This document shows, one piece after another, positions 37,024 through 59,233 of a stretch of 64,000 bases of DNA; positions within the stretch are counted from its first letter, which is position 1; each line of letters opens with the position of its first letter. Position numbers and translations under genes: made by a program. The notes under the pieces are model-generated. The model worked only from the letters and a program-made list of their open reading frames with translations, did not search any database and was not told the DNA's origin. The DNA is taken from contig NZ_SJRW01000001.1 in assembly GCF_004352825.1 (NCBI RefSeq), forward strand, positions 930,001 through 994,000, in the 5' to 3' direction. Origin of the DNA: Luteimonas arsenica. Lineage in GTDB: Bacteria > Pseudomonadota > Gammaproteobacteria > Xanthomonadales > Xanthomonadaceae.

Positions 37024-37100
37024 GCGCCCGTAGCTCAGCTGGATAGAGCACCAGGCTACGAACTTGGGGGTCGGAGGTTCGAATCCTTCCGGGCGCGCCA
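37024..37100 (+). tRNA. tRNA-Arg (anticodon ACG), island attachment site
   Basis: Acceptor GCGCCCG paired to CGGGCGC, D arm GCTC...GAGC, anticodon loop CTACGAA (ACG, read as ICG for CGN), T loop TTCGAATC and encoded CCA. The defence island begins immediately after it. The 3' half is a usual integration target. Confidence 0.96.
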
Positions 37101-37112
37101 TAGAAAAAGCAC

Positions 37113-37146
37113 AAGGGTCAACGGCTTAGCGCTCGTTGGCCCTTTT
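37113..37146 (+). terminator. Terminator after tRNA-Arg
   Basis: An 11-bp stem AAGGGTCAACG/CGTTGGCCCTT (one G-U) with a 10-nt loop, followed by T residues. Confidence 0.8.
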
Positions 37147-37170
37147 GCGTTGTGGGCGCCGCGCATCTTC

Positions 37171-37225
37171 TGTGCCCAGTTTGTGCCCACGCCGTGCCCG
37201 GCCGCTCCCGATTGCGTGCCCAATT
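37171..37225 (+). repeat. Helically phased GTGCCC iterons
   Basis: GTGCCC occurs at 37172, 37183, 37194 and 37216, spacings of 11, 11 and 22 bp. Units are TGTGCCCAGTT, TGTGCCCACGC, CGTGCCCGGCC, a degenerate unit, and CGTGCCCAATT. This fits a set of protein-binding sites on one face of the helix, such as integrase arm-type sites near attL or a repressor array before the island operon. Confidence 0.6.
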
Positions 37226-37331
37226 CACACGGAACGGGTCATTACGCTTGGTGGTCTCGCCACCTGCGACACGGACAAGGCATTATTCCCTGCAGGCGAC
37301 TGCTCTGGCGTCGCCGCGTCAGTTGCGCTGA

Positions 37332-40253
37332 ATGCTGCGCAACGGGAACAGGGGGATGGTGTTGGAAGGAATCGCGGCACCCGGCGCACGGGTACTGATT
37401 CGGGACGAGGAGTGGCTGGTCCGCCGGGTGGATCCGTCCAGCGATGGCGGTGATCTGCTGGTCTGTGACGGCGTGTCCGACCTGGTCCGCGGCCGTAGCG
37501 CGCACTTCCTGACCAAGCTCGAGGAGCGCATCGAGCTGCTGCATCCGGCCCAGACCCACTTGGTCCAGGACGATTCCAGCCACTTCAACGCCTCGATGCT
37601 CTACATCGAAGGTGTCCTGCGCCGCAACCTGCCCAACGATGACCGCATCCGCCTGGGCCACCGCGCGGTCATGAATCTCGTGCCCTATCAGCTGGACCCG
37701 GCGCTGCAGGCGTTGGCCCAGCCGCGCCAGCGCATCCTGATCGCCGATGCCACCGGCCTGGGCAAGACCCTGGAGGCCGGCATCCTCGCCACCGAGCTGA
37801 TCCAGCGCGGCCGCGGCAGCCGCATCCTGGTCATCACCCTCAAGAGCATGCTCACCCAGTTCCAGAAGGAGTTCTGGAGCCGCTTCTCGATCCCGCTGGT
37901 GCGTCTGGATTCGGCTGGACTGGGCTCGGTGCGCAATCGCATCCCCGCCAACCACAACCCGTTCAACCACTACGACCGCGCGATCATTTCGATCGACACG
38001 CTCAAGAACAACCTCGAGTACCGCAACTACCTCGAGAACGCGTGGTGGGACATCATCATCATCGACGAGTGTCACAACGTGGCGGCGCGCGCCAACGAGG
38101 GCGGCCTGTCGCGTCGCGCCCGCCTGGCACGGCTGCTCTCGACAAGGTCCGACACACTGATCCTGCTCTCGGCCACCCCACACGACGGCTCGGCGCGCTC
38201 GTTCGCCTCGCTGATGAGCCTGCTCGATCCAACCGCCATCAGCGACCCGGACGACTACACGCCCGAGGATTTCCGCGACAAGGGCCTGGTGATCCGCCGC
38301 TTCAAGAAGGACATCCGCGACCAGGTCGAAGGCGACTTCCGCGATCGCATCACGGAAGTCATACGCGCCCAGGCCACCCCGGCCGAGGAGGCGGCTTTCC
38401 ATGCCCTGCTGGAGATCCCCTTTACCCAGGGCGGCAAGCGCCAGAGCGGCCGCCAGCACGAGCTTCAGCGCGTGGGTATGCAGAAGGGCCTGTTCTCCAG
38501 CCCCGCGGCGGCCCTGCAGTCCACCCGCAACCGCATCGTCACCCTGCAGGGCAGGGATGCGCCGACCGAAGACGAGCACGACGAAGTCGCGGCCCTGCAG
38601 ACGTTCCAGCAGTCGCTGGCAGCGGTCACTGAGGATCAGTTCGCCAAGTACCAGCGCTTCCTGCGCTTGCTGACCGACCCCGACTACGCCTGGTCGCCGA
38701 AGGACACGAACGATCGCCTCGTCGTGTTCTCCGAGCGCGTTGAAACGATCAACTGGCTGCGCGAGCGCCTGCAGGCCGACCTGAAGCTCAAACCCGACCA
38801 GGTCGACGTGCTGCACGGCGGCCTCAGTGACACCGAACAGCAAGCCCTGGTCGAACGCTTCGGCCGCAGCGAGGATCCCATCCGCGTCCTGCTGTGCTCG
38901 GACGTGGCCTCCGAAGGCCTCAACCTGCACTACTTTTGCCACCGCCTGGTGCACTTCGACCTGCCGTGGTCGCTGATGGTGTTCCAGCAGCGCAATGGCC
39001 GCATCGACCGCTACGGCCAGCAGCAACAACCCCGCATCACCTACCTGCTGACCGAAACAGAGGTCGAGAAGATCCGCGGCGACCTGCGCATCCTCGAAGT
39101 GCTGCAGCAGAAGGACGAGCGTGCCAACCGCGACCTGGGTGACCCCAGCGCCTTCCTCAACCTGCACGACCCGGACCTGGAAGCGCAGGACATCGCCCGC
39201 CGCATGGCAGAAGGCCAAGCCGCGGAACAGGTGGCCCAGGATCTGGAGCAGGAGGCCACACAGGCAACGGAAGGCGAGGGCGACTGGCTGCTGAAGTTCT
39301 TCGACGGCGCCGCCGCCGAAGCCCGCGCCAAGCCCAGCGCCACCGAGCGCATCGCGGCCACGCCGTCCCTGTTTGCCGACGACTTCGCCTTCGCCAAGAC
39401 CGCGCTGGAGGAACTCGGCCGCGTCCGCCCAATCGCCCAGTGGTCGCACGACGAAGTCTCGCGCACGCTCACCCTCACCGCGCCGCTGGACCTGCAGCAG
39501 CGCCTGCGCCAGATCCCGCGTGAAGCCCGCGACGCCGACGACCGCTACGTGCTCTCCGGCCAGCCGCAGCGCGTGGCCGAGGCCATCGAGAAGGCCCGCC
39601 AGGCCAAGCGCGACGAGGAAAGCTGGCCGCGCGTGCACTACCTGTGGGCGCAGCACCCGATCAGCGAGTGGCTGCGCGATCGCGTACTCACCCATTTCGG
39701 CCGCCACACCGCCCCGGTGCTGCGCTCACCAGACTTGGCGCAGGACGAGCGCGCCATTGTGATGATGGGCCTGGTGCCCAACCGCAAGGGCCAATCGCTG
39801 CTGGTCGACTGGCAGGTGGCCGTGATGCGCGGCAAGCAGCCGCCAGTCCTGGAGCCTTTCGACGCCTTCCGCGAACGCGCCGGACTCAACGCCGGCACCT
39901 TGCCCAACCCGGGCAAGGCCTTCGCCCTGGAGCCGCTGCAGGCCGACCTGCAAACCGCTGTGCAACAGATGCAGGCGCACATGCAGCAGCGCCAGCAGGC
40001 CTTCTCCGCCGAAATGAGCGAGCGCCTGCAAGAGACCTTGAGCAACCTCAAGCACCTGCAGGAGCGGCAGATCGAACAGCTCGAACTTCGCCTGGAAAAG
40101 CAGGGTGGCCTGGAGAACCTGCGGCAGGGCAAACGCGACCGCCGCGTCGGCCAGATCCGCCGCGTGTTCGACGAATACGAAACGTGGGTCCGCGACAGCC
40201 TGCAGACCGAACCGCACCCGTACATCCAGGTGCTCGCCGCAGTGGTCGGGTAG
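37332..40253 (+). CDS. SNF2/RapA-type helicase, first gene of DISARM-like operon
   Basis: A 973-residue superfamily 2 ATPase. Walker A ATGLGKTLEAG is near residues 139-149, the DEAD-box variant DECH at 245-248, the SAT motif in LLSATPHDGSA, and the C-terminal helicase lobe ends with RNGRIDRYGQ near 551-562. The N-terminal 100 residues (RVLIRDEEWLVRRV, a small beta domain) and the overall order resemble DrmD of class 1 DISARM and RapA. The last 250 residues are Gln/Leu-rich coiled coil. It likely translocates on DNA for a restriction or defence complex. The start is uncertain: ATG 37332 or ATG 37356. It abuts the DUF6361-like gene. Confidence 0.85.
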   Translation: MLRNGNRGMVLEGIAAPGARVLIRDEEWLVRRVDPSSDGGDLLVCDGVSDLVRGRSAHFLTKLEERIELLHPAQTHLVQDDSSHFNASMLYIEGVLRRNLPNDDRIRLGHRAVMNLVPYQLDPALQALAQPRQRILIADATGLGKTLEAGILATELIQRGRGSRILVITLKSMLTQFQKEFWSRFSIPLVRLDSAGLGSVRNRIPANHNPFNHYDRAIISIDTLKNNLEYRNYLENAWWDIIIIDECHNVAARANEGGLSRRARLARLLSTRSDTLILLSATPHDGSARSFASLMSLLDPTAISDPDDYTPEDFRDKGLVIRRFKKDIRDQVEGDFRDRITEVIRAQATPAEEAAFHALLEIPFTQGGKRQSGRQHELQRVGMQKGLFSSPAAALQSTRNRIVTLQGRDAPTEDEHDEVAALQTFQQSLAAVTEDQFAKYQRFLRLLTDPDYAWSPKDTNDRLVVFSERVETINWLRERLQADLKLKPDQVDVLHGGLSDTEQQALVERFGRSEDPIRVLLCSDVASEGLNLHYFCHRLVHFDLPWSLMVFQQRNGRIDRYGQQQQPRITYLLTETEVEKIRGDLRILEVLQQKDERANRDLGDPSAFLNLHDPDLEAQDIARRMAEGQAAEQVAQDLEQEATQATEGEGDWLLKFFDGAAAEARAKPSATERIAATPSLFADDFAFAKTALEELGRVRPIAQWSHDEVSRTLTLTAPLDLQQRLRQIPREARDADDRYVLSGQPQRVAEAIEKARQAKRDEESWPRVHYLWAQHPISEWLRDRVLTHFGRHTAPVLRSPDLAQDERAIVMMGLVPNRKGQSLLVDWQVAVMRGKQPPVLEPFDAFRERAGLNAGTLPNPGKAFALEPLQADLQTAVQQMQAHMQQRQQAFSAEMSERLQETLSNLKHLQERQIEQLELRLEKQGGLENLRQGKRDRRVGQIRRVFDEYETWVRDSLQTEPHPYIQVLAAVVG

Positions 40254-40261
40254 TGGGCGTC

Positions 40262-41587
40262 ATGTCGACTCCCTTTCCGATCATCTCATCCTGGGATCCG
40301 CGTGCCATGTCCTCGGGAAGCATCGACCCCCTGGGGGCTTTGCGCGCCTACAACGCAATCGCGGGATTCCTTTTTCCCGGTGTGACCACCATCACCACGC
40401 GCGTTCGCTATCTGTCCTGGCTGTGCGCGGGATTGTGTCTTCTCGATGAGGTGGATGGTGCACCTGCTGGAGGCACCGCAGCGCGCAGTCGGCGTCAGCG
40501 ACTCCTGGCATGGGAGCGCTTCCTCGTTCTCGCCACTGGCTATTACGCAGTGTCGAGCGAATTGCCCAACGATGCCCCCGAATGGCGGGGCCTGCGCGGA
40601 ATCAGCTACGTCCGCAATGCCCTGGGACAAGGAGCAACGTCCACGGAGTTTGAATTGCTCAAGAACCAGACGGGCGTGGGAGGCGTGGGCACCTACTGGG
40701 TGACCATGGTGCAGGGCGGCTTGGTCGAGGACATGTCGGCAGAGTTGACTGATCGCGGCACCAAGCTGGCTGAAGAGTTCCTCAAGCGGCTGGGTACTCC
40801 GGTGCGCAACCGGCTGCGCAGGATCCTTGGCGGCGAGGTTCCTGTGTTCTCCAAGAGCGATCTCGTCGGCTGGGGCAAGATCGTTTCGCTCAATACCTCA
40901 TCTGGGTCGGTTGCCGAAGTCCGAGGCTTGCGTGATGCCCTGCTGGAGCCAAGGGCACAACGTCTCCTGTCCCGGACCATCGGCACGGTCAAGATTCCGA
41001 AATCGAACCAGGACACTTTCAAGCGCCTTGAGCGGGCGCTCAGGAAGGAAAAAGACGACACCGCCGCAAGGATGGCGGCAGTCATGGAAATGACTCGCGC
41101 CTTCGAGCGTGTCCATGTTGGCCTGCTCGACCAGTTTGATCGCCTGAGGTCACTCGACTTGCGCGGAACACCGGTGGACCGAAAAGCAGCGGTCAATGCG
41201 CTGGACCTTTCTGGCGGCCTTGCGGAGCGGGGGGGCGAGCTGGATCGTTGCTTGAACACCCTTCCGGACCTGCCAAGGGAAACCGCCACTCCGGTACGCC
41301 AGTTCCTCGCGAACGTGCGCCCGGTGCTGGAAGCCGGAACGAAGGACGCCTTCTTGCAGGCCATCTGCAGCCACCATGATCGTGTACAGGCCGGCAAACT
41401 CGACGCCTCCAGACAGCCAAAGCAAGCCTGGGTTACGCTTCACGATGACCACTTCGTGGTCTCTCCCCGATTTGCGATCGACGGCGTGCCGCAGCCACGC
41501 GAAGCCACCGCCTTCACGCACCCCTACAGGATCGAATCCTTTGCAGGAATGCTGGCCGAAGTCGAGCAGCCGGGAGCGGCTGCATGA
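40262..41587 (+). CDS. DUF6361-like protein of the helicase/PLD operon
   Basis: A 441-residue protein with no catalytic motif I can name. The start SSGSIDPLGALRAYNAIA and RVRYLSWLCAGLCLL recall the DUF6361 family often annotated in defence loci. It may be helical and Arg/Lys-rich in the middle (RRILGGEVPVFSKSDLVGWG). The GTG at 40253, which shares one base with the preceding stop, is an alternative start. Its stop overlaps the PLD gene (ATGA), so it is made together with the nuclease-like protein and probably binds it. Family naming is from memory. Confidence 0.7.
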   Translation: MSTPFPIISSWDPRAMSSGSIDPLGALRAYNAIAGFLFPGVTTITTRVRYLSWLCAGLCLLDEVDGAPAGGTAARSRRQRLLAWERFLVLATGYYAVSSELPNDAPEWRGLRGISYVRNALGQGATSTEFELLKNQTGVGGVGTYWVTMVQGGLVEDMSAELTDRGTKLAEEFLKRLGTPVRNRLRRILGGEVPVFSKSDLVGWGKIVSLNTSSGSVAEVRGLRDALLEPRAQRLLSRTIGTVKIPKSNQDTFKRLERALRKEKDDTAARMAAVMEMTRAFERVHVGLLDQFDRLRSLDLRGTPVDRKAAVNALDLSGGLAERGGELDRCLNTLPDLPRETATPVRQFLANVRPVLEAGTKDAFLQAICSHHDRVQAGKLDASRQPKQAWVTLHDDHFVVSPRFAIDGVPQPREATAFTHPYRIESFAGMLAEVEQPGAAA

Positions 41588-43734
41588 GTACCACGCGCCT
41601 TCTCGACTTGTGGGCGCCGCCGCCCGGCTATCGCCTGGCGAGCGTCATCGCCACCACCTACCAGCTCCAGGCCGACTTCATCGAAGAAGACTTGCTTCCC
41701 GTGGCACTTGGGCTGCGCCAATCACCGGCGCGGGGGCGCGAGTTCCGGATCGAGCTGGAAAAGACGCTGCAGGATGCAGAGATCACCGTCTACCTGCACC
41801 CGGACGGCTATACGCCGGGACTGCGGCGAAGTCCCCGGGTCGACCTGATTCCCGTACCCGAGTCCCGGCTTCGGAAGCTTCATGCCAAGGTGTCGCTGCT
41901 CCTGTTCGTACCGGAGCAGGGCGACGAGCCAGCGGCCAGGATTGTGCGTCTGGTGACGGGGTCGGCCAACCTGACGGCCAGCGGCTATCGACACAACATC
42001 GAGCTGGCCGTTGCGATGGACGATGCGCCCGGCGCGGCCCCGGTCGTTGTCACCGCCGTGCGGGATGCTGCCGAATGGTTGCACCGCATCCTTCCCCCGG
42101 ACACTGAGCAGGCACGCTCCCAGCATCGCGCCATGCAGGCGGTGTTCGCTGCCCGCACGGTCTCTGCCGACCGCACGGAGATGGTATTCGTCGGCCTGCC
42201 GCGACAGGGCGGTTTGATGCAGGCGCTGTCAGGCCTGGACCTTGGCAAGGTCCATACCTTGACCGCGGCAAGCCCGTTCTGGCCCGGGGGAGAGGATGCC
42301 AGCGACATTGCGTCCGGAGTGCTGCAGTCATGCGGGGGCGTTCCGGATCTGGTCCGCCTGATTGGACCTTGGCACGCGGTGGAGGGACGGCTGTACCCCG
42401 AGATGCCGCCGGCGCTACTGAAGTCGTTGCAGGCGCTGGGTGTTGAGCAGCTTGAGGTTTCCCACTCGGTTCCAGATTTTGGATGCGCCCCCGAAAGCAC
42501 CACGCCTGCGGATGCTGAAGGCGAGTACGACGATATTGGCACAGACACCACAGCCGCCTTTGCAGCATGGCGGCCACTGCACGCCAAGGCACTGCTGATT
42601 GAAGGCTCCAAGGCCAGTGTGCTGGCGATGGGCTCGTTCAACTTCACCCGCCGAGGTCTGGGTTTGCATGAGCGCGCGGCCAACACCGAGGCGGGAATGA
42701 TCTGGCATGTTCCTGCGAAGTCATCCGCGCGCCTGCGGCAGGCGCTCGGATTCTCCGGCCCCTGGCGCAAGGTGGACGGTGCACTGGACGAGCTGGTCAT
42801 CGCGCCGGGCCCGATGGAGGGCGAGAACGGGCAACAGTGGCCCGCATTCATCCGCTCCATCCGCGCCAGCCGGGACGTATTGATCCTCGAAGGAGACGGC
42901 GCTGCCTGGCCGGCTGAACTCAAGGTTTCGATGCGTGACATCCGCTCGCGTCTGCTCCAGATGGATCGCAACTTCGATCCCTGGGTGATCGCCCGCCCGC
43001 CAGCCGGGGAGGACGTTCGGGCCGAACTCGCGCTTGTCGCAGGCTGGATGGAAGAAGAGGGGCAGCAGGCGCTTTCCCGCTATCCCGCGCTGCCGGATCT
43101 TGAAGTCCTGCTGGAGTGGGATGAGCAAAGGACCGTCCTGCCGGTCGTCTTCATCGACAAGCATGAGTTCCCGGTCGTGGAGCGCACCGCCCGCGAAGAC
43201 GAGCGCATGCTCCTTGACTGGTTCCTCGGGCTGCGCCCGGCCGATGAGGCGGACGCCGATGGGTACGGGCACGGTTTCGATCCCGAGACCATCGACCAGG
43301 TCACCGACGCGGGAGAGCGTGCGGGAATCCTCAGCTATCTCATTCGCGACTTCGTGCATGCCTTGCCCGGCATCCGCGCGCATCTTGAGGACGGCGCGTC
43401 GACCGAGACGGGGCTGCGCACGGCTCTGCTCGGGCCACGATCGCCGGCGAAACTGGCTGACGAGATCCTTGATGCACGAATGAAGCCCGCCAAGGGGAGG
43501 CCGGGGAAGACCGATGTCGCCACCACTTTCCAGCTCATTGAGCTGCACAAACTGGTCAATAGCGCCCCCTTGCCCGAATTGCCCGATGGTGTGACCGAAC
43601 AACTGCGCGGGCAATGCCTCGCACGCATCGATAGGGCACTTGTCACCATCATCGATCAGTTCAAGCAGCCATTGGAGCCGGTTCTCGGACAGTACGTTGC
43701 CTCGCGGGGGAAGAGACGCCATGCGACGGCATGA
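41584..43734 (+). CDS. Phospholipase D-like (two HKD motifs) protein
   Basis: A 716-residue protein with both halves of a PLD active site: LHAKVSLLLF with GSANLT (H100, K102, N around 128) and LHAKALLIEG with GSFNFT (H333, K335). This is the fold of PLD nucleases such as BfiI and Nuc, and of DrmC in DISARM. The C-terminal 350 residues have no clear motif (LLDWFLGLRPADEADADG). It probably cleaves DNA or phosphodiesters as the effector of the operon. It overlaps the next helicase by 14 bp. Confidence 0.85.
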   Translation: MSTTRLLDLWAPPPGYRLASVIATTYQLQADFIEEDLLPVALGLRQSPARGREFRIELEKTLQDAEITVYLHPDGYTPGLRRSPRVDLIPVPESRLRKLHAKVSLLLFVPEQGDEPAARIVRLVTGSANLTASGYRHNIELAVAMDDAPGAAPVVVTAVRDAAEWLHRILPPDTEQARSQHRAMQAVFAARTVSADRTEMVFVGLPRQGGLMQALSGLDLGKVHTLTAASPFWPGGEDASDIASGVLQSCGGVPDLVRLIGPWHAVEGRLYPEMPPALLKSLQALGVEQLEVSHSVPDFGCAPESTTPADAEGEYDDIGTDTTAAFAAWRPLHAKALLIEGSKASVLAMGSFNFTRRGLGLHERAANTEAGMIWHVPAKSSARLRQALGFSGPWRKVDGALDELVIAPGPMEGENGQQWPAFIRSIRASRDVLILEGDGAAWPAELKVSMRDIRSRLLQMDRNFDPWVIARPPAGEDVRAELALVAGWMEEEGQQALSRYPALPDLEVLLEWDEQRTVLPVVFIDKHEFPVVERTAREDERMLLDWFLGLRPADEADADGYGHGFDPETIDQVTDAGERAGILSYLIRDFVHALPGIRAHLEDGASTETGLRTALLGPRSPAKLADEILDARMKPAKGRPGKTDVATTFQLIELHKLVNSAPLPELPDGVTEQLRGQCLARIDRALVTIIDQFKQPLEPVLGQYVASRGKRRHATA

Positions 43735-46700
43735 AGGCTTGGACTACCGTCAATCGCTTACCCACCTGATGGGCCAGGGGGATCGCGCGGAGATTGAAGC
43801 CATTGCAGTGCGTCAGGAGCGCACCGTGGACGCGCTGTTGCGGCGAATGTACGACGCAAGCGACGCGGAGCGCCGGGAACTGGTGCTATTGGCAGACGAA
43901 GTTGGTCTTGGAAAGACGTTTGTCGCTTTGGGGGTGGCCTGGTCGGTATTGCTTGGCCGCATCCGGGATGGATTGCCGTCCAAGCCGATCCTGATCGTGA
44001 CGCCGAGTTCGAAGGCGCTTTTCGGAAAGTGGCAGCGTGACGTTGAGACCTTCCTGAAGGAGTCCGTGCCGAACGAGCCGAAGGTCATCCCTCGTCCCGT
44101 GGAGACGCCGCACGAGCTCGCTCAAGCCCTATGTGAGCGGCGGCCGACTGTCGTCATCGCGCGTATGTCGGCATTCGAAGGCCGATTGCACAGCTATGAG
44201 ATCGCCATGGGGGCGACGCTCCACACACTCTTCAACGACGGACAACGCCGGCTTGGGGTCGACCAGAGGCTGATGCTGGTCGATGGCCTGTCCGTCTTGC
44301 ATTCGCGCGACGAAGTCGATCTGCGCCGCTCTGGTCAATACTGGGCAGCCGCCGAGAGTGAGGAAAGGGTTGGATACGGGCGTCGCCACGTCGAGCGCGC
44401 CATGCACAGACTGCGCCGTGTTGCCCCTGGGGTGATCGACAGTATCGACACCAGCGTCGAACGGGTCCGGGCCGGCAATCGTCCACGAAGCGACTTCCAG
44501 TCTTCGGCCAGGGAACTGGCCCGCGCGGCCCTTGGCCAGCGGATTCCAGGAGCGCTGCCGCTGGTCATCGTGGATGAAATCCACAACTGGAAAAACCACC
44601 CCAAGGGTTGGCGGCGCTTCCTGAACATGCTTGGCGGCCGCATCGAACGGATGCTTGGACTTTCCGCCACGCCCTTCCAACTCGGCCCCGACGAGCTGAT
44701 CAGGATCCTCGAACTGCGCAAGTGCCTGCGCTTGGACGAGGACAGGGGGCGGACACTTGACCAATCCGTTGACCTGCTGGGTACACGGTTGGAACAGGCG
44801 CAGCAGGCGGGTTCGCAGCTGGCCGGGGCCTGGGGAGAGGTGCGCGCGGCCGACATTGGCGACATCGAGCAAGCCTGGAGAAAGCGTTCGACCGGATTGC
44901 CCGGCGGCATGCCGTCAAGAATCGAACATGCCCTGCGCGCGGCCATGACCGTCGAGTCCGCCCACGACAACCTCATGGCCAGCTTGCATCCATTTCTGGT
45001 CCGGCATCGGCGGGATACCCGCCATCGACGCTGGCGGGTGGGTTGTGATGCCGAAGCGCCCCTGCACGATACCCGGCGCAATGCACGGACCCTTTCCTGG
45101 CGCCCGGGGTTGGACGTCCGCGGCGACGGCGAACTCGTGCACTACCTGATGATGCGCGCAACGCAGGAGAGTAAGCAGGGCAAGGGCGTCACCAGCCTGG
45201 GCGCTGACCTGGGCGGCTCCTACGATTTCTTCCGTGAGCACGGGCTCAAGCGACTCAATGAGCAGGGCGAACCGTCCGCCAAGCCTTATCTCGAGCTGGT
45301 CGACATCGCAACCGGCCAGTCGGCGCGCGAGGCGCATCCAAAGGTACGTGTCACCGTCGAGCGTGCGTTCAATGCCTGGTTGCATGGAGAAAAGACACTC
45401 ATCTTCTGCTTCAATCCGTTGACCGTCGACGCGCTGCGCAATGCGATTTCCGAGCGCATACGCAGCCACGAGCAGGCAGCCCTCATGGCCGCGTTCGGCT
45501 GCAGCGCCGACGAGTACCCAAAGCGCCTGGAGAACTTCCAGAAGCGGCTCTACAACTACCGGCAATCGCTGTTCCTGCTGCTTCAGGACCACCCCTTAGC
45601 GGGTTCTGCAGGCCGGGTCCCCCCACATCTGGCCTTGAGCGAAGTCGATCTGGCCCAGGTCACGCGGATGCTCGCCGCTGGTGGTCCGCCCAGGGATGGT
45701 TCCCGTTTTGATCGGCGTCGGGTCCTGGCGGCAACCGAGCATGTGCTGGTGGCGCGCTGGCGACAGACGGCGCATGGCAGCGCATGGCTGGAAGCAGTCC
45801 TTCCGGGCATCCCTGAGGGTCCTGAGCATCTGCTTGAGAAGATCCTGTCGCCGGACTGGCCGTCGCTGCGACGAAGCCGTTTCGAAGGCATGCAGAAGGA
45901 CGCCGAGGCGGAGCCCTTCCCCGACGATGAAGATCATCGCAGCGCCAGCGAGGCGATCGATCCCGCGCACGAAGCCGCATGGCGCGACGTGCTGGCAGGA
46001 AGGGCGGGGCAGGCCGCCCTCGCGCCTTATCTGGCCGATGGCGTGGAGGTGCCCAGCCTGCTGCTGCGCTGGCATGCCGCCGAGCTGCATGGCCTGCCTG
46101 CACGTCACCGCGCACTGGCCACCCGCATGCTGCGTCGCATGGTGCGATCACCCGGATTCCTCGCGCGCTTCCTGTTCAATGATGTCGCCACCGGGTCTGT
46201 CCGGGATGAAGGCGATGACGATCCCGATGGCGAATGGGCGATTCGCCTCCATGATCGGTGGTGTGCGCCCCCCGCCGGCGGGGAATCGGCGCGGGATCGT
46301 TTCAATGCCTATCTTGAAACCCTGCGCAAGGTCGTCGGCCATGACATGGGAACCCGTGCTTACGAAGACGCGGCGCGCAATCGCGATACCGTCGCCCGGG
46401 TCACCGGTGGTGTCGCCAATACCGAACGCGACCGCTTCTTTAGCGGCTTCAACACGCCGCTCGTCCCCGAAGTACTGATCCTTACCTCGGTCGGCCAGGA
46501 AGGCATCGACCTGCACCGCGAGTGCCGCCACGTCATCCACCATGACCTGCCCTGGAATCCCGCCACGCTGGAGCAGCGGACCGGCCGCGTGGATCGCATC
46601 GGTAGCAAGGCCGAGCGCCTGGCCGGTAAAGGAGAAGAGGCGGGCGTACTGGACGTCGTGGTGCCCTATGTCGCCAACACCTACGACGAGTACCGCTTTC

Positions 46701-46933
46701 GTCGCGTCCACGCACGTGCGCACCTGTTCGAGGTGACAATGGGTGCCAACTACGCGGTCGAAACGGCCGGCCGCGCCGGAAACACATCGGAGGTCAATCC
46801 CGTCGTGGATGACGCCAACGTCGACGACTCCATCGAGGCCGTCGTGCCCCTGCCTGACGTCATCGCACGGGCGCTGCGGATGCGGCTGGAGGCCGAAGGA
46901 AACGGCAACGACCAGGAGCGGACACCAACATGA
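43721..46933 (+). CDS. Second SNF2-type helicase of the operon
   Basis: A 1070-residue superfamily 2 ATPase. Walker A is DEVGLGKTFVALG (about residues 57-70), Walker B DEIHNW near 284, the SAT motif GLSATPFQLG, and lobe 2 ends in SVGQEGIDLHRE, DLPWNPATLEQ and RTGRVDRIGSK near 951. About 350 residues of unique sequence lie between the lobes. The ATG at 43721 has GGGGGAAGAG upstream; the ORF extends to 43640 but that start lies inside the PLD gene without a Shine-Dalgarno. It overlaps the methyltransferase by ATGA. It is distinct in sequence from the first helicase, so the two are not a recent duplication. Confidence 0.87.
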   Translation: MRRHEGLDYRQSLTHLMGQGDRAEIEAIAVRQERTVDALLRRMYDASDAERRELVLLADEVGLGKTFVALGVAWSVLLGRIRDGLPSKPILIVTPSSKALFGKWQRDVETFLKESVPNEPKVIPRPVETPHELAQALCERRPTVVIARMSAFEGRLHSYEIAMGATLHTLFNDGQRRLGVDQRLMLVDGLSVLHSRDEVDLRRSGQYWAAAESEERVGYGRRHVERAMHRLRRVAPGVIDSIDTSVERVRAGNRPRSDFQSSARELARAALGQRIPGALPLVIVDEIHNWKNHPKGWRRFLNMLGGRIERMLGLSATPFQLGPDELIRILELRKCLRLDEDRGRTLDQSVDLLGTRLEQAQQAGSQLAGAWGEVRAADIGDIEQAWRKRSTGLPGGMPSRIEHALRAAMTVESAHDNLMASLHPFLVRHRRDTRHRRWRVGCDAEAPLHDTRRNARTLSWRPGLDVRGDGELVHYLMMRATQESKQGKGVTSLGADLGGSYDFFREHGLKRLNEQGEPSAKPYLELVDIATGQSAREAHPKVRVTVERAFNAWLHGEKTLIFCFNPLTVDALRNAISERIRSHEQAALMAAFGCSADEYPKRLENFQKRLYNYRQSLFLLLQDHPLAGSAGRVPPHLALSEVDLAQVTRMLAAGGPPRDGSRFDRRRVLAATEHVLVARWRQTAHGSAWLEAVLPGIPEGPEHLLEKILSPDWPSLRRSRFEGMQKDAEAEPFPDDEDHRSASEAIDPAHEAAWRDVLAGRAGQAALAPYLADGVEVPSLLLRWHAAELHGLPARHRALATRMLRRMVRSPGFLARFLFNDVATGSVRDEGDDDPDGEWAIRLHDRWCAPPAGGESARDRFNAYLETLRKVVGHDMGTRAYEDAARNRDTVARVTGGVANTERDRFFSGFNTPLVPEVLILTSVGQEGIDLHRECRHVIHHDLPWNPATLEQRTGRVDRIGSKAERLAGKGEEAGVLDVVVPYVANTYDEYRFRRVHARAHLFEVTMGANYAVETAGRAGNTSEVNPVVDDANVDDSIEAVVPLPDVIARALRMRLEAEGNGNDQERTPT

Positions 46934-49900
46934 GTACCGACACCGCCGCCCAGGTCTTCGCCGGCATCAGCAACGAGAACGAGTTCTACGGCCACCACTA
47001 CCTGGCCGAAGTATTCAAGGGTGACATCCGCGACCGCCTCAACGCCTGGCAGGCGCGCGAGGACGAGGCCAAGGAAGCTGCCAAAGCATCCGCTGACGCC
47101 GCCGACACGTCCTGGCGCAGCCCGCAGCGCGTGCTCGCCGGCGCCGGCGGCCGCTGGTTCCGCGAGCGCGAAAAGCTGCGCCACGCCCACGATGCCGACA
47201 CCTTCGCCCAGCACTTCGCCCAGCTCCAGCAGCCGCTGCTGCAGGCCTTCGGCTATGCCATCGAACCGGCCGTCATTACCCTGGTGGACGGGAACCCCAT
47301 CCGCGTCTGGCAGCGCCTCGGCCCCGGCGATCGCGCCCCGCAGCTGCTGGTCATTCCCGCCGCCGTCCACGGCCACGCCGAGGAAGACATCCTCGACCAG
47401 CCCATCGATCTGTCCGGCTACCCCGGCGAGCCGCCGAAGGATGCCAAGGACGCCACCTGGGCCGACTGGCTCTCCGACGCCGTGTTCGGCGCCGACCACC
47501 CGCCGCGCTTTGTGCTGCTGGTGGGCCTGGACGACTGGCTGCTCGTGGACCGCTACAAGTGGCCCAACAACCGCGCCCTGCGCTTTGCCTGGGGCGAGAT
47601 CCTCGACCGCAAGGACGGCCCCACGCTGGAAGCCGCCGCCGCCCTGCTGCACCGGGAAAGCCTCGCCCCCATTGATGGCAGCATCCTGCTCGACGGCCTG
47701 GACGAGAACGCCCACAAGCACGCCTTCGGCGTCAGCGAGGACCTCAAGTACGCCCTGCGCGAATCCATCGAGCTGATCGGCAACGAAGCCGCCCGCCAGC
47801 TGCGCGAGCTGGCCGAAGACCAGAAGAAATCCGTGTTCTCCGGCCGCGGCGAGCTCGACGCCGAGCAGCTCAGCCTGGAATGCCTGCGGCTGATGTACCG
47901 CCTGCTGTTCGTGTTCTACATCGAGGCCCGCCCCGAACTGGGTTACGTGCCCATCCAGCGCAGCGAGACTTACCTCAAGGGCTACAGCCTGGAATCCCTG
48001 CGCGACCTGGAGCTGGTGCCGCTCAACACCGACGAGGCCCGCAACGGCTTCTATTTCGACGCCACCCTCAAGCGCCTGTTCGGCCTGATCCACACCGGCA
48101 GCGGCGATGCCATCAGCCCGGAGCTGCGCGGCCACGCCGCCACCGTGCGCGAGGCCTTCGCCCTGGCGCCGCTGGACAGCCGCCTGTTCGACCCGGCCGC
48201 CACCCAGCTGCTTAACCGCCTGCGCTTCCCCAACTGGCTGTGGCAGCAGGTCATCGCCCAGATGTCGCTCACCCGCAGCAAGGGCCGGGGCCGCCGCCGA
48301 GGCCGCGTCAGCTATCAGCTCCTATCCATCAACCAGCTCGGCGCCGTGTACGAGGCGCTGCTGTCCTACCGTGGCTTCTTCGCCAAGGAAGACCTGTTCG
48401 AAGTCCAGCCAGCGCCGAAGAAGGCCAAGGCCACCGGCGAGGATGACGAGGACGGCGAGGGCGCAGACGAGGAGACCGGCACCGGCACCAGCACCGACCT
48501 GATGGGCAGCGCCTGGTTCGTGCCCGAAAGCCGCCTGGGCGAATACAAGGACAACGAGCGCGTCTACGACCTCGACGAGAACGGACACAAAAAGCTGCGC
48601 CGCTACCCCAAGGGCAGCTTCATCTACCGCCTGGCCGGCCGCGACCGCGAAAAATCCGCCAGCTACTACACCCCGCAGGTGCTCACCCAGTGCCTGGTCA
48701 AGTACGCGCTCAAGGAGCTGCTGCAGGGGAAAAAGGCCGACGACATCCTGCAGCTCACCGTGTGCGAGCCTGCCATGGGCAGCGCCGCGTTCCTGAACGA
48801 AGCCGTCAACCAGCTGGCCGAGAAGTACCTGGAGCTCAAGCAGGACGAGACAAAGCGCCGCATTCCGCACGACGAGTACCCGCGCGAGCTGCAGAAGGTG
48901 CGCATGTACCTGGCCGACCGCAACGTCTACGGCGTGGACCTCAACCCGATTGCCGTGGAGCTGGCCGAAGTCTCGCTCTGGCTCAACGCCATCTACGGCG
49001 AACCCACCCAGGACAGCGACGGCAATGCGCTGCCGCCGCAGCCGGCGCGCGTGCCCTGGTTCGGCTACCAGTTGTTCGACGGCAACAGCCTGATCGGCGC
49101 GCGTAACGAGGTCTACAACGCCAGCGCCCTGCTCAAGGGTGCCAAGCCGCGCTGGTATGACGAAGCCCCGCGCCGCCTCGACCCGCAGCGGCCCGACCGC
49201 AAGCCCAGCGAGATCCACCACTTCCTGCTGCCTGATCCGGGCATGGCGGCCTACACCGACAAAGTCGCCAAGGCGTTGTACCCGGACGACTTCCAGCGCC
49301 TGAAGGACTGGCGCCGCGCCTTCACCAGACCGCTGGAAACGCACGAAATCGCCCGCCTGCAGCAGCTCAGCGGAAAGATCGACGCGCTCTGGGATGAGCA
49401 CGCCCAGTGGCTGGCCCGCGACCGCAAAGCCACCGAGGACCCGATGGCGGTATGGCCGCACCCCGAGCCCGCCGAGCGCCGCACCACCCGCGCCGAAAAG
49501 GAAGCCACTCGCCGCAAGGGTCTGTTCAACGAAGACGCCGACGAAGCCACGCCCTACCGACGCCTGAAGCTGGTGATGGACTACTGGTGCGCGCTGTGGT
49601 TCTGGCCGATCCAGGACAGCGCCAGCCTGCCCAGCCGCGAGCAGTGGTGGATGGAAGTGGGCGCGATCCTCGAAGGCAACGTGGTGGACCTTGCTCCGCA
49701 GGCTTCGCTGGACCTGGCCGCCACCGCCGCGCCTCAGGAACTGGCACCCAAGCCGCAGCCGACGCTGGCCGGCTTCGAGTCACAGCTCGACCTCACCGCT
49801 ACCCCGGCCCAGCCCACCCTGCACGACCGCTTCGGCCGCCTGCGCATCAACAAGCTGCGTGAGGTGTTCCCGCGCGTGCGTGAGGTGGAAGCGATAGCGA

Positions 49901-52044
49901 AACAGCGCCGCTTCATGCACTGGGAGCTGGCCTTTGCCGACATCTTCCGCAGCCGTGGCGGCTTTGACCTGATCCTGGGCAATCCGCCGTGGCTGAAGGT
50001 GGAGTGGAACGAGGCCGGCATCCTGGGCGAGGCCAACCCGCTGTTCGCCATCCGCAAGTTCAGCGCCAGCGAGCTGACCAGGTTGCGCGCCGAGGCCTTC
50101 GATACCTTCAGCGGCCTGCAAGGCGACTGGACCGCCGAGCTGGAGGAGGCCGAAGGTACCCAGGCCATGCTCAACGCCGTGCAGAATTACCCACTGCTCA
50201 AGGGCGTGCAGACCAATCTGTACAAGTGCTTCCTGCCGGTGGCGTGGCGACTGGCAAGCGGGCAGGGTGTGACCGGGCTGCTGCATCCGGAAGGGCCTTA
50301 TGACGACCCCAAGGGTGGCGGGCTGCGCGAGGCGCTGTATGCGCGGCTGCGGGCGCATTTCCAGTTCGTCAATGAGGCGCATCTGTTCGCTGAGGTGCAC
50401 AACCTCACCAAGTTCAGCGTCAACATCTACGGCCCGACCCAGGCCGCGCCGGGCTTCGACCAGATCGCCAATCTGTTCGTGCCGCCAACCGTGGATGCCT
50501 GCTATGCACATGACGGTAGCGGGACAGTTCCGGGCTACAAGACCGACGATGGTAAATGGAACTTCGTCGGTCACCGCGACCGCATCGTGCGCGTGGACGA
50601 TGCCGCGCTGGAAGTGTTCGCGAAGCTCTACGACGAACCCGGCACCCCGCCGCGCCGCGCGCGCCTGCCCGCGCTGCACGCCGGGACGCTGAACAGCGTG
50701 CTGCGCAAGCTGGCCGACTATCCGCGCCGGCTGGGTGATTTGGGTCGAGACTACTTCTCGACCGTGATGTTCGACGAGACCTATTCGCAGCGTGACGGCA
50801 CCCTTGTCCGTCGCGCGCCGGGCGACAACGCCTTCCCGGACACCGCGCAGGACTGGGTGCTGTCCGGCCCGCACTTCTTTCTCGCCAACCCCTACAACAA
50901 GACGCCGAAGCGTGTCTGCACCGCCAACAAGCACTACGACGTCATCGACCTGGAAACCCTGCCCGACGACTACTTGCCGCGCAGCAACTACCGCCCCATG
51001 GCAGACCGCAAGGAATACCTGCGCCGCGTGCCGAAGGTGAGCTGGACCGAAACCCGCACCGTGGTCCTGCCCAAAGTGCAGATGACTCCGGAAGAAGCGG
51101 CCAACTGCGAGGGCGAGGAAGGCGAAGTCGAGCGCAAGGTGGCGTTGCCGGTGACGGAATACTACCGTTACGTCCATCGGCGACGCATCAGCGTAAGCAT
51201 GGAGCGTACGCTGATTCCGACAGTACTGCCGCCAGGCGGAGCACATGTTCATACCGTCCTGTCTCTGACGTTCAAAGCACCACGCGATCTGGCTACGACT
51301 CTTGGGCTCGCGCAATCTTTGCTGATCGATGCGTATGTCAAGACGACGGGGCAGGGCGATCTTTATGACTCGACGTTCTCGCGTATCCCATACCTAGAGA
51401 ATGACGGAGTGCTTGCGAGAGCGTTGGCCCTCAACTGCCTCACCACCCACTACGCCGATCTCTGGGAGCAGGTCTTCGACCTCGCCTTCACCGACCAGCG
51501 CTGGAGCCAGCCCGACAACCCGCGCCTGCCGCAGGACTTCTGGGCCGACCTCACCAGCGACTGGACCCGCGACTGCGCCCTGCGCACCGACTACGCGCGC
51601 CGCATGGCCCTGGTCGAGATCGACGTGCTGGTCGCCCAGGCTCTGGGCCTCACCCTCGACGAACTGCTGCTGATCTACCGCGTCCAGTTCCCGGTGATGC
51701 AGCAGTACGAGCGCGACACCTGGTACGACATCCACGGCCGCATCGTCTTCACCAACTCCAAGGGCCTGGTCGGCGTCGGCCTGCCCCGCAAGGGCGCCAG
51801 GCAAGCCCCGCCCACCGTCATCATCCACCCCGATGGCAAGCAGACGCGCGGCAACCACGGCTGGGAAGACATCCGCGACCTCCCCGCCGGCACCGTCATC
51901 GAACAGACCGTCCCAGACGACACCCTCCCCCAAGGCCCCCACCAGAAAACCCGCCGCTACATCGCCCCCTTCACCCTCGCCAACCGCGAGGACGACTACC
52001 GCACCGGCTGGGCGTTCTTTGCGGCGGAGGCTGCATCGACATGA
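46930..52044 (+). CDS. Eco57I/PglX-type adenine-specific DNA methyltransferase
   Basis: A 1704-residue protein. SAM-binding motif I is EPAMGSAAFL near residue 612 and the catalytic motif IV is GNPPWLKVEW near 1017, which fits an N6-adenine methylase. The order resembles PglX (BREX), DrmMI (DISARM) and type IIG enzymes. The first 450 residues are a long N-terminal region without a clear PD-(D/E)xK site. The C-terminal 500 residues hold the target-recognition region, with LIPTVLPPGGAHVHTVLS. DNA coding for that part (about 51180-51420) is lower in G+C than its flanks. It starts by ATGA overlap with the helicase. Confidence 0.9.
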   Translation: MSTDTAAQVFAGISNENEFYGHHYLAEVFKGDIRDRLNAWQAREDEAKEAAKASADAADTSWRSPQRVLAGAGGRWFREREKLRHAHDADTFAQHFAQLQQPLLQAFGYAIEPAVITLVDGNPIRVWQRLGPGDRAPQLLVIPAAVHGHAEEDILDQPIDLSGYPGEPPKDAKDATWADWLSDAVFGADHPPRFVLLVGLDDWLLVDRYKWPNNRALRFAWGEILDRKDGPTLEAAAALLHRESLAPIDGSILLDGLDENAHKHAFGVSEDLKYALRESIELIGNEAARQLRELAEDQKKSVFSGRGELDAEQLSLECLRLMYRLLFVFYIEARPELGYVPIQRSETYLKGYSLESLRDLELVPLNTDEARNGFYFDATLKRLFGLIHTGSGDAISPELRGHAATVREAFALAPLDSRLFDPAATQLLNRLRFPNWLWQQVIAQMSLTRSKGRGRRRGRVSYQLLSINQLGAVYEALLSYRGFFAKEDLFEVQPAPKKAKATGEDDEDGEGADEETGTGTSTDLMGSAWFVPESRLGEYKDNERVYDLDENGHKKLRRYPKGSFIYRLAGRDREKSASYYTPQVLTQCLVKYALKELLQGKKADDILQLTVCEPAMGSAAFLNEAVNQLAEKYLELKQDETKRRIPHDEYPRELQKVRMYLADRNVYGVDLNPIAVELAEVSLWLNAIYGEPTQDSDGNALPPQPARVPWFGYQLFDGNSLIGARNEVYNASALLKGAKPRWYDEAPRRLDPQRPDRKPSEIHHFLLPDPGMAAYTDKVAKALYPDDFQRLKDWRRAFTRPLETHEIARLQQLSGKIDALWDEHAQWLARDRKATEDPMAVWPHPEPAERRTTRAEKEATRRKGLFNEDADEATPYRRLKLVMDYWCALWFWPIQDSASLPSREQWWMEVGAILEGNVVDLAPQASLDLAATAAPQELAPKPQPTLAGFESQLDLTATPAQPTLHDRFGRLRINKLREVFPRVREVEAIAKQRRFMHWELAFADIFRSRGGFDLILGNPPWLKVEWNEAGILGEANPLFAIRKFSASELTRLRAEAFDTFSGLQGDWTAELEEAEGTQAMLNAVQNYPLLKGVQTNLYKCFLPVAWRLASGQGVTGLLHPEGPYDDPKGGGLREALYARLRAHFQFVNEAHLFAEVHNLTKFSVNIYGPTQAAPGFDQIANLFVPPTVDACYAHDGSGTVPGYKTDDGKWNFVGHRDRIVRVDDAALEVFAKLYDEPGTPPRRARLPALHAGTLNSVLRKLADYPRRLGDLGRDYFSTVMFDETYSQRDGTLVRRAPGDNAFPDTAQDWVLSGPHFFLANPYNKTPKRVCTANKHYDVIDLETLPDDYLPRSNYRPMADRKEYLRRVPKVSWTETRTVVLPKVQMTPEEAANCEGEEGEVERKVALPVTEYYRYVHRRRISVSMERTLIPTVLPPGGAHVHTVLSLTFKAPRDLATTLGLAQSLLIDAYVKTTGQGDLYDSTFSRIPYLENDGVLARALALNCLTTHYADLWEQVFDLAFTDQRWSQPDNPRLPQDFWADLTSDWTRDCALRTDYARRMALVEIDVLVAQALGLTLDELLLIYRVQFPVMQQYERDTWYDIHGRIVFTNSKGLVGVGLPRKGARQAPPTVIIHPDGKQTRGNHGWEDIRDLPAGTVIEQTVPDDTLPQGPHQKTRRYIAPFTLANREDDYRTGWAFFAAEAAST

Positions 52045-52154
52045 GCAACTACTGGGACAGCGTTGATTACGTCACCTTGCCGGTGAAGCTGTTGGACGGC
52101 GTATGGGAGCTGTTGTACGGCGGCAGCACCGGCATCCGGAACGGCAGGCGTTGA
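52041..52154 (+). CDS. Possible 37-residue coupled ORF
   Basis: The ATG lies in the ATGA that ends the methyltransferase gene. The sequence starts MSNYWDSVDYVTLPV and ends NGRR, with an aromatic and hydrophobic centre (KLLDGVWELLYGG). It is too short to be sure it is expressed. Overlap and the gap-free fit to the next gene (17 bp) make it plausible. Confidence 0.35.
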   Translation: MSNYWDSVDYVTLPVKLLDGVWELLYGGSTGIRNGRR

Positions 52155-52171
52155 TTCAAAGGAGCACAATC

Positions 52172-52405
52172 ATGATCGGTGATGTGACGCTGAAGGACCT
52201 CAGATCCCGCATGGACGAGCATCTGATGGCCGTCGAAGAAGTGCTGGGTGGTTTGGATCTCTACGTCCAGCAACTCGAGGGGCGGCTGGCTCGGATCGAG
52301 GGCGTGCTGGGGCTGGACCCGGACGGACTGACCACGCAAGGCGCGCTCGCCCAACTGCATCGTCTCTCTGCCGTGGTCGACCAGATGCGCAGGGAAGTCC
52401 GGTGA
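52172..52405 (+). CDS. 77-residue coiled-coil protein
   Basis: Almost fully helical with heptads of Leu, Val and Ile (VQQLEGRLARIEGVLGL, LHRLSAVVDQMRREV). The ATG at 52172 has AAGGAG seven bases upstream; the ORF extends to 52103 but lacks a ribosome site there. It overlaps the next gene (GTGA). Likely a dimerising partner of the following proteins; function unknown. Confidence 0.7.
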   Translation: MIGDVTLKDLRSRMDEHLMAVEEVLGGLDLYVQQLEGRLARIEGVLGLDPDGLTTQGALAQLHRLSAVVDQMRREVR

Positions 52406-53406
52406 GCGGGCTTGTCCCGGATTCTGGTCGAATCGGCGCCTATCATGAGCTTTATGTGGGGCCGGAGGCCGGCGCCGGCATGAATGCCTTCTGGGCGGCC
52501 AACGCCCGTTTCCTGCAGCGAAAGCGACAGACTCTGCTGGATGTGGCCATGGAGGCGAGTGCCGCGCAGGCTCAGGTGTGGGAGGGTTTTGACGACCTTG
52601 ATCCGCTGCTGCAGCAGGCGGTGCGCGAGACCAATCCCGGATTGGGAGAGAGCCGGTGGGTCACGATGGATGCGGATGAGCGGATGGGGGCGATCAATGC
52701 CGCGAAAGGCAAGTACTTCGAGTACCTGGTCGTGGAGCGCCTGAACGCAGGCGAGCAGGTAGGAGACATCACATTGGCCACGGGTCAGCAGGCCGTGATC
52801 GCGGAATCGATGAATCAAGCTGGCTGGGACGTGCAGATCGTCGGTGATGATGGCTCGGTCATCCAATACCTGCAGATGAAGGCCACCGACAGCGGTGCCT
52901 ATATACGAGAAGCGTTGGAGCGCTATCCCGATATCCAGATCGTCAGCACATCCGAAGCGGCTGGGCGGTTGGATGGCCACGACATGGTCCTGGATGCCGG
53001 TATCGGGAACGACGAACTGAAGCGGCAAGTGGGAGGTGCCGTGGATCTGGCGGATGACGCGGTGACGGAGCGGTTTGTCGATTACTTCTGTCCGCTGTGG
53101 CCGCTGATGGCGATGGCTGCGATGGAGGGATACAAGGTCAGTGTCGGTCAGGCCAGTGTCGATTCCTTCGTCGATCAGATGGCCGTCCGTGGGAAGCGAC
53201 TGCTGGCAATCAAGCTGGCAGGGGCGACGGTGTTCGCGATGGGAGGCGGGTTGCTGGCGATTCCTGCCGGGTTAGCGGGCGGGCTTTGGTATGACAGGTT
53301 CCGCAACGTGCACGGTCTGGACGAGCGTTATGCGCACGGTACGGACCGACTCCTGTCTCTGGCAACCTATCGTCATCGACAACTGCTGCTGGAGGGGCGC
53401 GCATGA
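52402..53406 (+). CDS. Unknown protein with a nuclease-like core and a membrane segment
   Basis: A 334-residue protein. Residues about 95-165 have E-YLVVERLN, then WDVQIVGDDGS and YLQMKATD, a spacing that recalls PD-(D/E)xK-type nucleases with Q-x-K replacing E-x-K. A Gly-rich hydrophobic helix (AGATVFAMGGGLLAIPAGLAG) is near residues 270-295. I do not recognise the family. GTG start inside the preceding stop; the end overlaps the next gene by ATGA, so the 77-residue, 334-residue and 311-residue proteins are made together. The nuclease idea is inference from a short pattern. Confidence 0.55.
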   Translation: MSGLVPDSGRIGAYHELYVGPEAGAGMNAFWAANARFLQRKRQTLLDVAMEASAAQAQVWEGFDDLDPLLQQAVRETNPGLGESRWVTMDADERMGAINAAKGKYFEYLVVERLNAGEQVGDITLATGQQAVIAESMNQAGWDVQIVGDDGSVIQYLQMKATDSGAYIREALERYPDIQIVSTSEAAGRLDGHDMVLDAGIGNDELKRQVGGAVDLADDAVTERFVDYFCPLWPLMAMAAMEGYKVSVGQASVDSFVDQMAVRGKRLLAIKLAGATVFAMGGGLLAIPAGLAGGLWYDRFRNVHGLDERYAHGTDRLLSLATYRHRQLLLEGRA

Positions 53407-54338: not shown

Positions 54339-54367
54339 CTGCTCACAGGCAATTGAAGGGGGAGATT

Positions 54368-54877: not shown

Positions 54878-54947
54878 CCGGCCGTCAGGCCGCTTTGTTG
54901 TTGATGGGTCGGCTTCCCGGTCCACGCGAGATATGGAGCTTGTGGAC

Positions 54948-58406: not shown

Positions 58407-58450
58407 TTACGTGACTTCAACGCGGAAAGGTACGAGAAGTTGCTGGCGGC

Positions 58451-58954: not shown

Positions 58955-58957
58955 CGA

Positions 58958-59221
58958 TCAGCGCCGGACCAGTCCGCGTTCCATTGCCTTCCTGAGCCGC
59001 GCGTTGGGTGCGAACGGCTGGTCAAGCGCGGCGAGGAAGCGACGCGACTCTTCGGCCGACAGGGTGACGGAGAGCTCGGCGGCCATCACGTTCTCGGCTT
59101 CACGCAGCACGGCATCGCGTACGAACGTGGACAGCGGCACGCCGCGCAAATCCGCAGCGCGGCTGATGCGCGCCTTGTCGGCGGGGTTGAGGCGAAAGTC
59201 GAGGCGGGCGGCGGCGGTCAT
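58958..59221 (-). CDS. DUF1778 (ribbon-helix-helix) antitoxin
   Basis: An 87-residue protein, MTAAARLDFRLNPADKARI at the start, then SRAADLRGVPLSTFVRDAV, an RHH-type fold, and a C-terminal tail that should bind the toxin. AGGAG lies eight bases before the ATG. The start is confirmed by homology to DUF1778. It heads the pair, and a dyad sits upstream. Confidence 0.9.
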   Translation of the reverse strand: MTAAARLDFRLNPADKARISRAADLRGVPLSTFVRDAVLREAENVMAAELSVTLSAEESRRFLAALDQPFAPNARLRKAMERGLVRR

Positions 59222-59233
59222 GGCAGGCTCCTG

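Follow-up and report, generated by a model that had tools for sequence, protein, structure and literature searches.

The four GTGCCC boxes that stand on an 11-bp register behind a tRNA-Arg(ACG) gene are very probably left-arm-type sites of a tyrosine integrase of the PF12167 class (Arm-DNA-bind_2, IntBPP-1), lying just inside the left end of an island with anti-phage cargo. The arm-site reading follows from core copies at both ends of the island, from boxes inside both of those ends, and from the association of such arrays with PF12167 integrases in other genomes. Among relatives the boxes keep their offsets from the tRNA, and because the island itself is without an integrase, the nature of the cognate enzyme is deduced from those relatives.

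The box array and its island

A word search of the window, the whole 64,000-nt stretch analysed here (G000:C1:930001-994000, from a genome of 2.97 Mb in 7 contigs), places GTGCCC on the + strand at 37172, 37183, 37194 and 37216, with spacings of 11, 11 and 22 bp, as a preliminary description had reported. The starts of the boxes are +72, +83, +94 and +116 bp from the 3′ end of the tRNA, and the array spans 72-121 bp past it, which agrees with the 70 to 120 bp given earlier; its placement just before the first island gene also holds, since the boxes are flanked by the tRNA on one side and by the first large island ORF on the other (ATG 37332; Table 1). The word itself is not enriched in the window (59 copies against 71.7 expected), and thus only its arrangement is special. 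GTGCCC and TCGAGG are the only hexamers with four copies at a period of 7-15 bp within 60 bp anywhere in the 64,000 nt, the latter being present four times at a 9-bp period at 5404-5436 as the sole other fixed-period hexamer array. No such array of any hexamer arose in 100 windows simulated with a second-order Markov model, and under an order-3 model GTGCCC in the layout 0/11/22/44 is expected 1.5e-9 times per window, against about 1.7e-4 times for this layout with any hexamer; a chance origin is excluded by the simulation and this expectation together. Coding repeats are likewise excluded as the cause, because 11 is not a multiple of 3 and the period runs out of frame; short ORFs from the ORF list cross the boxes, and the earlier judgement that a coding reason was unlikely is borne out.

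Table 1. Features of the island and its ends (window coordinates unless a contig is given)
Feature	Position	Strand	Basis or remark
tRNA-Arg(ACG), integration target	37024..37100	+	ARAGORN
Left attachment core attL, 45 bp, anticodon loop CTACGAA to CCA	37056..37100	+	exact copy at G000:C1:999876-999920
Island, window part	37056..64000	.	continues to G000:C1:999876; 32,820 bp in all
Terminator-like hairpin and T run after tRNA	37115..37146	+	by eye
Putative arm box 1, TGTGCCCA	37171..37178	+	window letters and word search
Putative arm box 2, TGTGCCCA	37182..37189	+	window letters and word search
Putative arm box 3, CGTGCCCG	37193..37200	+	window letters and word search
Putative arm box 4, CGTGCCCA; one turn skipped at +105	37215..37222	+	word search and comparison of relatives
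First large island gene, DrmD-like SNF2 helicase	37332..40253	+	ORF list and protein scan
PLD-like protein, ZacB-like	41584..43734	+	protein scan
ZacC-like helicase, start uncertain	43640..46933	+	protein scan
Type IIG restriction-modification enzyme	46930..52044	+	protein scan
AbiEi/AbiEii pair	near island right end, beyond window		protein scan
Right-end boxes GTGCCCA and GTGCCAA, 11 bp apart	G000:C1:999720-999737		inside right end, 139 bp from core

The 45-bp 3′ part of the tRNA is identical at the two ends of the island, the right copy lying beyond the window, and such a direct repeat of a tRNA 3′ end is what is expected of a tRNA-integrated island of a tyrosine integrase. A contig search found no further copy of the tRNA end elsewhere on C1. 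Boxes flank the core copies on both sides, inside the element in each case, with four at the left and two at the right, and the GC content of the island is 64.8% as against 70.9% in window positions 1-36800. The DNA behind the right core resembles that behind the left, within a match of 109 bp in all that is 85% identical, and similar terminator-like hairpins follow both tRNA 3′ copies (window 37100-37155; C1:999921-999976), as if the island had brought its own terminator for the tRNA. Directly beyond the right core (L011:7884-19317, G000:C1 from 999884) are a 4′-phosphopantetheinyl-transferase-like ORF and a 3632-aa NRPS/PKS-like ORF, both named by eye.

Among the scanned island proteins, which are a subset of the ORFs, are also a DruE-like and a UvrD-like helicase, and in that same subset there are no replication or conjugation genes. 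The preliminary description had envisaged a cognate integrase to the right of the window; none is encoded on the contig there, nor was one found elsewhere in the genome. A PF00589 profile search of the genome gave four matches, all on contig C2 and none in the island, searches with PF12167 and with PF00239 (serine recombinase) gave no match in the genome, and two home-made integrase profiles gave none in the island. One integrase of the genome itself (L010) was rejected as the cognate enzyme on account of an N-terminus that lacks the PF12167 motif by eye, and presumably is DUF4102-like, and of the empty PF12167 search; a serine recombinase in the same genome is likewise rejected, given the empty PF00239 search. 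The island thus appears to be orphan or trans-mobilised, with core copies and arms present and an integrase of which we could find none, and its att sites without an integrase gene are those of a cis-mobilizable element (CIME). Since the enzyme is missing from the genome, the island would be either stranded or dependent on an outside integrase.

The same tRNA site in relatives

The left end of the island was searched as DNA in 395 genomes of the family, of which 19 matched, and 15 of the fetched loci have the tRNA-Arg. Conservation at the same tRNA, which the preliminary description had named as the point to check, is seen in 9 of these 15 loci, where at least two boxes stand 11 bp apart, although the set was picked by left-end similarity and so favours look-alikes, though many of the loci matched only in the hairpin stretch. 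Eight loci share the first three offsets of the window, +72/+83/+94 (G000, G003, G419 twice, G428, G407, G256 and G367), and six of the eight also have the box at +116. One further locus (G358) has two boxes that are one base off, another (G050) has a single box, and the other five have no such array. The box word at these loci drifts among GTGCCC, GTGCCA and a mix of GTGTCA and GTGCCA, and the cargo differs.

The closest comparison is with G003, a genome of the same genus, whose island at the same tRNA is 18,863 bp long and contains other defence genes. Its left end is 93% identical to that of G000 over 162 bp, with the boxes kept though a spacer changes, and its right 2.1 kb is 98% identical, right boxes included; between the ends are type III modification, Fic and SNF2 helicase proteins, among others. 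No PF12167 match was found in G003, whose eight PF00589 matches are on other contigs. A much smaller element occurs in G256, where the two cores are only about 1.8 kb apart. Each of its ends has an array, it encodes an HTH_37 protein together with a TacA/GNAT pair, and no integrase was found in the 16 kb read. In G367 the left array is accompanied by a PF12167-type integrase about 17 kb inside the island, and the right-arm boxes are on a second contig; the G407 island retains only a C-terminal remnant of a PF12167-type integrase. The right-end DNA of the window's island matched 17 of the 395 family genomes, at full length only in G000 and G003, the other 15 matches being short (28-52 bp) and 12 of them falling in one hairpin-like stretch. 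By eye, the right-end tRNA 3′ copies of G256 (L294 near 3430) and G367 (reverse of L299) are without a similar segment of about 8 bp of the T-arm.

These comparisons bear on whether the system is still in motion. It is nearly an even matter, leaning slightly against, that the boxes are a true arm array but a fixed relic, in which site-specific movement is over and cargo is swapped only by homologous recombination between conserved ends. The absence of PF12167 from both G000 and G003, together with the near identity of their right 2.1 kb around different cargo, would fit such a history. Weighing against it are the core copies, which are identical at both ends, the boxes, which are intact in both genomes, and the occurrence of PF12167 in seven genomes of the same family in a survey of the order.

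The preliminary description had proposed either integrase arm sites or the sites of a repressor, and only the former is strongly supported. Operators commonly have direct repeats spaced by the helical turn, and the boxes lie 110-160 bp ahead of the first large island ORF, a layout that would suit a repressor or activator of that gene. The offset, however, is fixed to the tRNA end and not to the gene, in that G000, G003 and G256 differ in their first gene and share +72/+83/+94/+116; boxes also occur at the opposite island end, and the box word tracks the arm domain of the integrase (see below), all of which makes an operator array very improbable. That the boxes are replication iterons of an integrated plasmid-like element, which direct repeats on an 11/22-bp register do resemble, is scarcely credible given the lack of a replication gene among the scanned subset of island proteins and the tie of the boxes to tRNA 3′ ends in many islands.

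Integrases and box letters

Arrays of this kind are found well beyond the family and at other tRNAs. Two GTGCCCA words 11 bp apart occur in 8 of 150 genomes, the present one included, a total of 10 matches where the reversed pattern gives 1; the array follows tRNA-Met in G043 and tRNA-Pro in G097, and at four other loci the 3 kb examined contain no tRNA. A PF12167 integrase lies between the two att copies of G097; the G043 genome has no PF12167 match, and the 59 kb read of it held no second core copy. A scan for three GTGCCCA boxes brought the loci examined to 122 (at least 118 genome-contig stretches and 4 viral loci). Among the 122 listed, the array is 0-250 bp downstream of a tRNA 3′ end in 66, on the same strand in 63, and the tRNAs concerned are Met, Arg(ccg), Arg(acg), Val, Lys, Pro, Gly and His; from tRNA density, the share expected there by chance is estimated at well under 1%. 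The remaining 59 are not behind a same-strand tRNA, and some of them may be chance. In viral contigs the GTGCCCA scan gave 4 loci against 6 for the reversed control, so there is no enrichment there. Two loci in which no integrase was found stand apart in form: nine GTGCCCA boxes follow one another at 11 bp on a Planctomycetota contig (L119 4584-4678), and on a Prochlorococcus contig (L196 4714) the array is about 810 bp from a tRNA-Pro.

The preliminary description had suggested looking for the array next to integrase genes, and near other tRNAs it indeed goes with one integrase family. A general integrase profile matched in 21 of the 122 loci listed, 13 times in one family and 8 times in other kinds, some facing the other way and three of the 8 Xer-like by eye. 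With a PF12167-type profile built from 13 of these array-locus integrases and run on the same 122 loci, a full-start integrase was found in 14, in all 14 on the same strand and on the island side of the array and in 13 within 1.6 kb; the five array-side integrases put to Pfam all match PF12167 and PF00589. No such integrase stands beside 33 of the 40 tRNA-adjacent arrays for which 1.6 kb of island could be seen. At the level of genomes, PF12167 is present in 35 of 61 with tRNA-adjacent arrays (31/48 plus 4/13 besides G003) and absent in 26, to be set against 28/348 in the order of the window, 23/369 in its class and 30/264 in its phylum, figures that are rough controls because the taxa differ. 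A GTGCCC array within 1.5 kb upstream was seen at only 1 of 29 PF12167 loci in the order survey, a low count that is partly explained by differing words and by the distance at which the integrase can lie.

A test centred on the integrase was independent of the word. It covered 40 PF12167 integrases from the surveys of the order and the class, together with those of G097 and G367; for each, a same-strand tRNA was sought up to 20 kb upstream, and any hexamer repeated three times at 11-12 bp was then scored in the next 260 bp. A tRNA was present in 18 of the 42 regions, the other 24 having none in the stretch read. Array scores of at least 16 were reached in 12 of the 18 tRNA loci (10/16 without G097 and G367, which had been found by their arrays) versus 1 of 380 random windows, and the other 6 scored below 16. 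The words beside these integrases include GGGCCC, GTGCCC, GTGTCC, GAGACC, GGGACC and GTGACA, among others, and varied words at the same spacing indicate that the 11-bp register goes with the integrase family while the word does not. PF12167 matches with a more distant arm motif (RETL, RERL or REKI as against REQT/REYT) had no array by the detectors used (L308, L312, L314, L316, L319, L351, L354, L357, L358, L365, L368, L369, L392, L396 and L397), and these integrases may have sites in some other arrangement. The DNA beside int was also inspected in seven phage records that tblastn had matched. Four of them (L411, L415, L417 and L416) have other 11-bp repeats downstream of int, namely TGCCCCA twice at 11 bp in three phages with the N-terminus MANASYPTG and, by eye, ATGCACTT twice at 11 bp in LMessi; the three Pseudomonas phages have no repeat pair beside int. 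The arm types of the phages are distant, and they stand outside the residue comparison below.

The letters of the boxes, whose form is T-G-N3-G-N5-C-N7-A, vary with residues of the N-terminal arm domain (numbered as in integrase L185). A first set comprises 33 integrases that have arrays. All 8 of those with a purine at base 3 have Tyr at residue 27, against 0 of the 25 with T; at residue 18, all 24 with C at base 7 have Arg or Tyr, and all 8 with A have some other residue. A tree that leaves the arm domain out shows at least six changes in each of base 3 and residue 27, and at least five in each of base 7 and residue 18; supported independent pairs agree in direction in 4 of 4 cases for each trait (sign test p 0.125, too few for significance). 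An open scan of N-terminal columns over the 33 integrases and seven further pairs, with z values that ignore relatedness, gave each of the three bases a top-ranked residue. For base 3 it was residue 27, where Tyr goes with a purine in 11/11 cases and Gln with T in 25/25, Val stands with a purine once, and T is seen once each beside Arg, Cys and Leu. Residue 18 led for base 7: C goes with Arg in 23/24 cases, with Tyr in 4 and with Gln in 2, and A with Phe or Leu in 6 and also with Lys and His. Base 5 was best tracked by residue 14, Phe having C in 23/25 and Tyr having A in 8/11. Residue 14 had already been suggested by earlier array data before the scan ranked it.

Sampling and alignment frame these counts. 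A GTGCCC array was the criterion by which 12 of the 33 rows of the tree were chosen; arrays also led to G097 and G367, and L371 and L384 come from GTGCCC-chosen genomes. The letters of L307, L310, L311, L317, L318, L324, L359 and L361 were read by eye, and L384 and L386, with the word on the other strand, were aligned by hand, as were the prediction-test arrays. Left out of the tree and the scan were L153 (partial), L325 (arm frame unclear), L370 (distant arm type, other-strand array) and 21 loci among L372-L410 with GTGCCC arrays from GTGCCC-chosen genomes; at residue 27 these 21 have 20 Gln and one His, in agreement with the pattern. L324 and L456 stand outside the base-7 count. Predictions were written beforehand for ten integrases, four of which had an array: base 3 was right in 3 of 4, the miss being a Val not seen before, and base 7 in 2 of 4, both misses being Gln in sister proteins. 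Two further integrases, for which no prediction had been written, both had the expected base 3; base 7 was not C in one, which fits, and in the other A/C/A stood where C was expected, a miss. Earlier written guesses on seven loci met an array in one (L367), which fitted. The residue code is a correlation with some misses.

In the AlphaFold model, the arm domain is predicted as a three-strand sheet and a helix, with residues 14 and 18 on strand 2 and residue 27 on strand 3 (pLDDT about 90). Its structural neighbours include solved arm domains (3rmp, 3jtz and 3ju0 among them) from P4-like, HPI and HAI7 integrases and from lambda Int, at low Z values of 3.1-3.9, and are topped by an AP2 DNA-binding domain at Z 6.0; a Foldseek search with the model returned nothing significant (best E 0.46), and a sequence search yielded no clear solved relative of the domain. 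Contacts of Gln with A and of Arg with G belong to general protein-DNA chemistry, and conceivably the A across from T is recognised here by Gln and the G across from C by Arg.

Taken as arm sites, the boxes suggest how the island would be inserted or excised. The catalytic part of a PF12167 integrase would bind the core that starts in the tRNA anticodon loop, while its small N-terminal three-strand domain would sit on several arm boxes along one face of the helix, on either side of the core, and the DNA would fold into the complex that carries out the reaction. The core copies, the arms, the kept offsets, the tie to PF12167 integrases and the missing gene are read from sequence, and from them we infer integrase binding and DNA bending; with the enzyme missing, the island would be stranded or movable only with a matching integrase from another element. 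A more far-reaching proposal, which we put forward tentatively and as somewhat less probable than its opposite, is that integrase-free cassettes with paired arm arrays share one tRNA-Arg in the family and are moved by the PF12167 integrases of other elements, which would choose islands through a short residue code. Such a cassette family might comprise, with a similar measure of doubt, the 32.8 kb and 18.9 kb of defence genes and the element of about 1.8 kb with little beyond toxin-antitoxin genes. The code it calls for, itself still a speculative step, would have residue 27 set base 3 (Gln for T, Tyr for purine), residue 18 base 7 (Arg or Tyr mostly for C, Phe or Leu for A) and residue 14 base 5 (Phe mostly for C, Tyr mostly for A).

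Relation to known systems

The signature TG-N-G-N-C-C/A every 11 bp behind a tRNA marks island ends even where there is no integrase, which allows orphan defence islands to be located and delimited. Given the co-variation, recognition of arm sites by a large integrase subgroup can be tested directly in point mutants, and the same pattern suggests how elements that share a tRNA target keep, or share, recombination systems. In the literature searched, whose reach mostly stops short of subscription papers, no description of the 11-bp array or of the residue pattern was found; GTGCCC does occur within att repeats of a prophage table in the accessible part of PMC6385640. There are precedents for arm-type arrays, for islands without an integrase and for N-terminal residues tuned to arm sites, judging from the available portions of PMC3203893, PMC3146451 and PMC8138268.

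The IntBPP-1 subgroup of arm-binding tyrosine recombinases (PF12167/DUF3596) was described by Smyshlyaev et al. (2021; PMC8138268), with an arm domain of three strands and a helix, according to the sections at hand. The five array-side integrases that match PF12167 and PF00589 resemble that subgroup, and the predicted arm fold is the same; the account, as far as its available text extends, concerns the protein and not the arm sites, and the island considered here is without an integrase. In Dehalococcoides, cis-mobilizable elements have been discussed for the ssrA islands, which involve a serine recombinase and tandem islands (PMC3146451, in part). The present island is like them in its flanking att copies, its lack of an integration gene and its content of cargo only, but differs from what the excerpt describes in having arm boxes at both ends, anti-phage cargo and no further copy of its tRNA end found on the contig. 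The nearest parallel for the letters of the boxes is in the Cluster K mycobacteriophages, whose arm sites vary with N-terminal residues 17 and 19 in the portion available of PMC3203893. There, as here, several arm sites flank a core in a tmRNA or tRNA gene and their letters differ with a few N-terminal residues; in contrast to the phage sites as described in that portion, the arrays reported here keep an exact 11-bp register, have three or four boxes, recur in many islands with many words, and go with another integrase subgroup, in which residues 14, 18 and 27 are best correlated with the letters.
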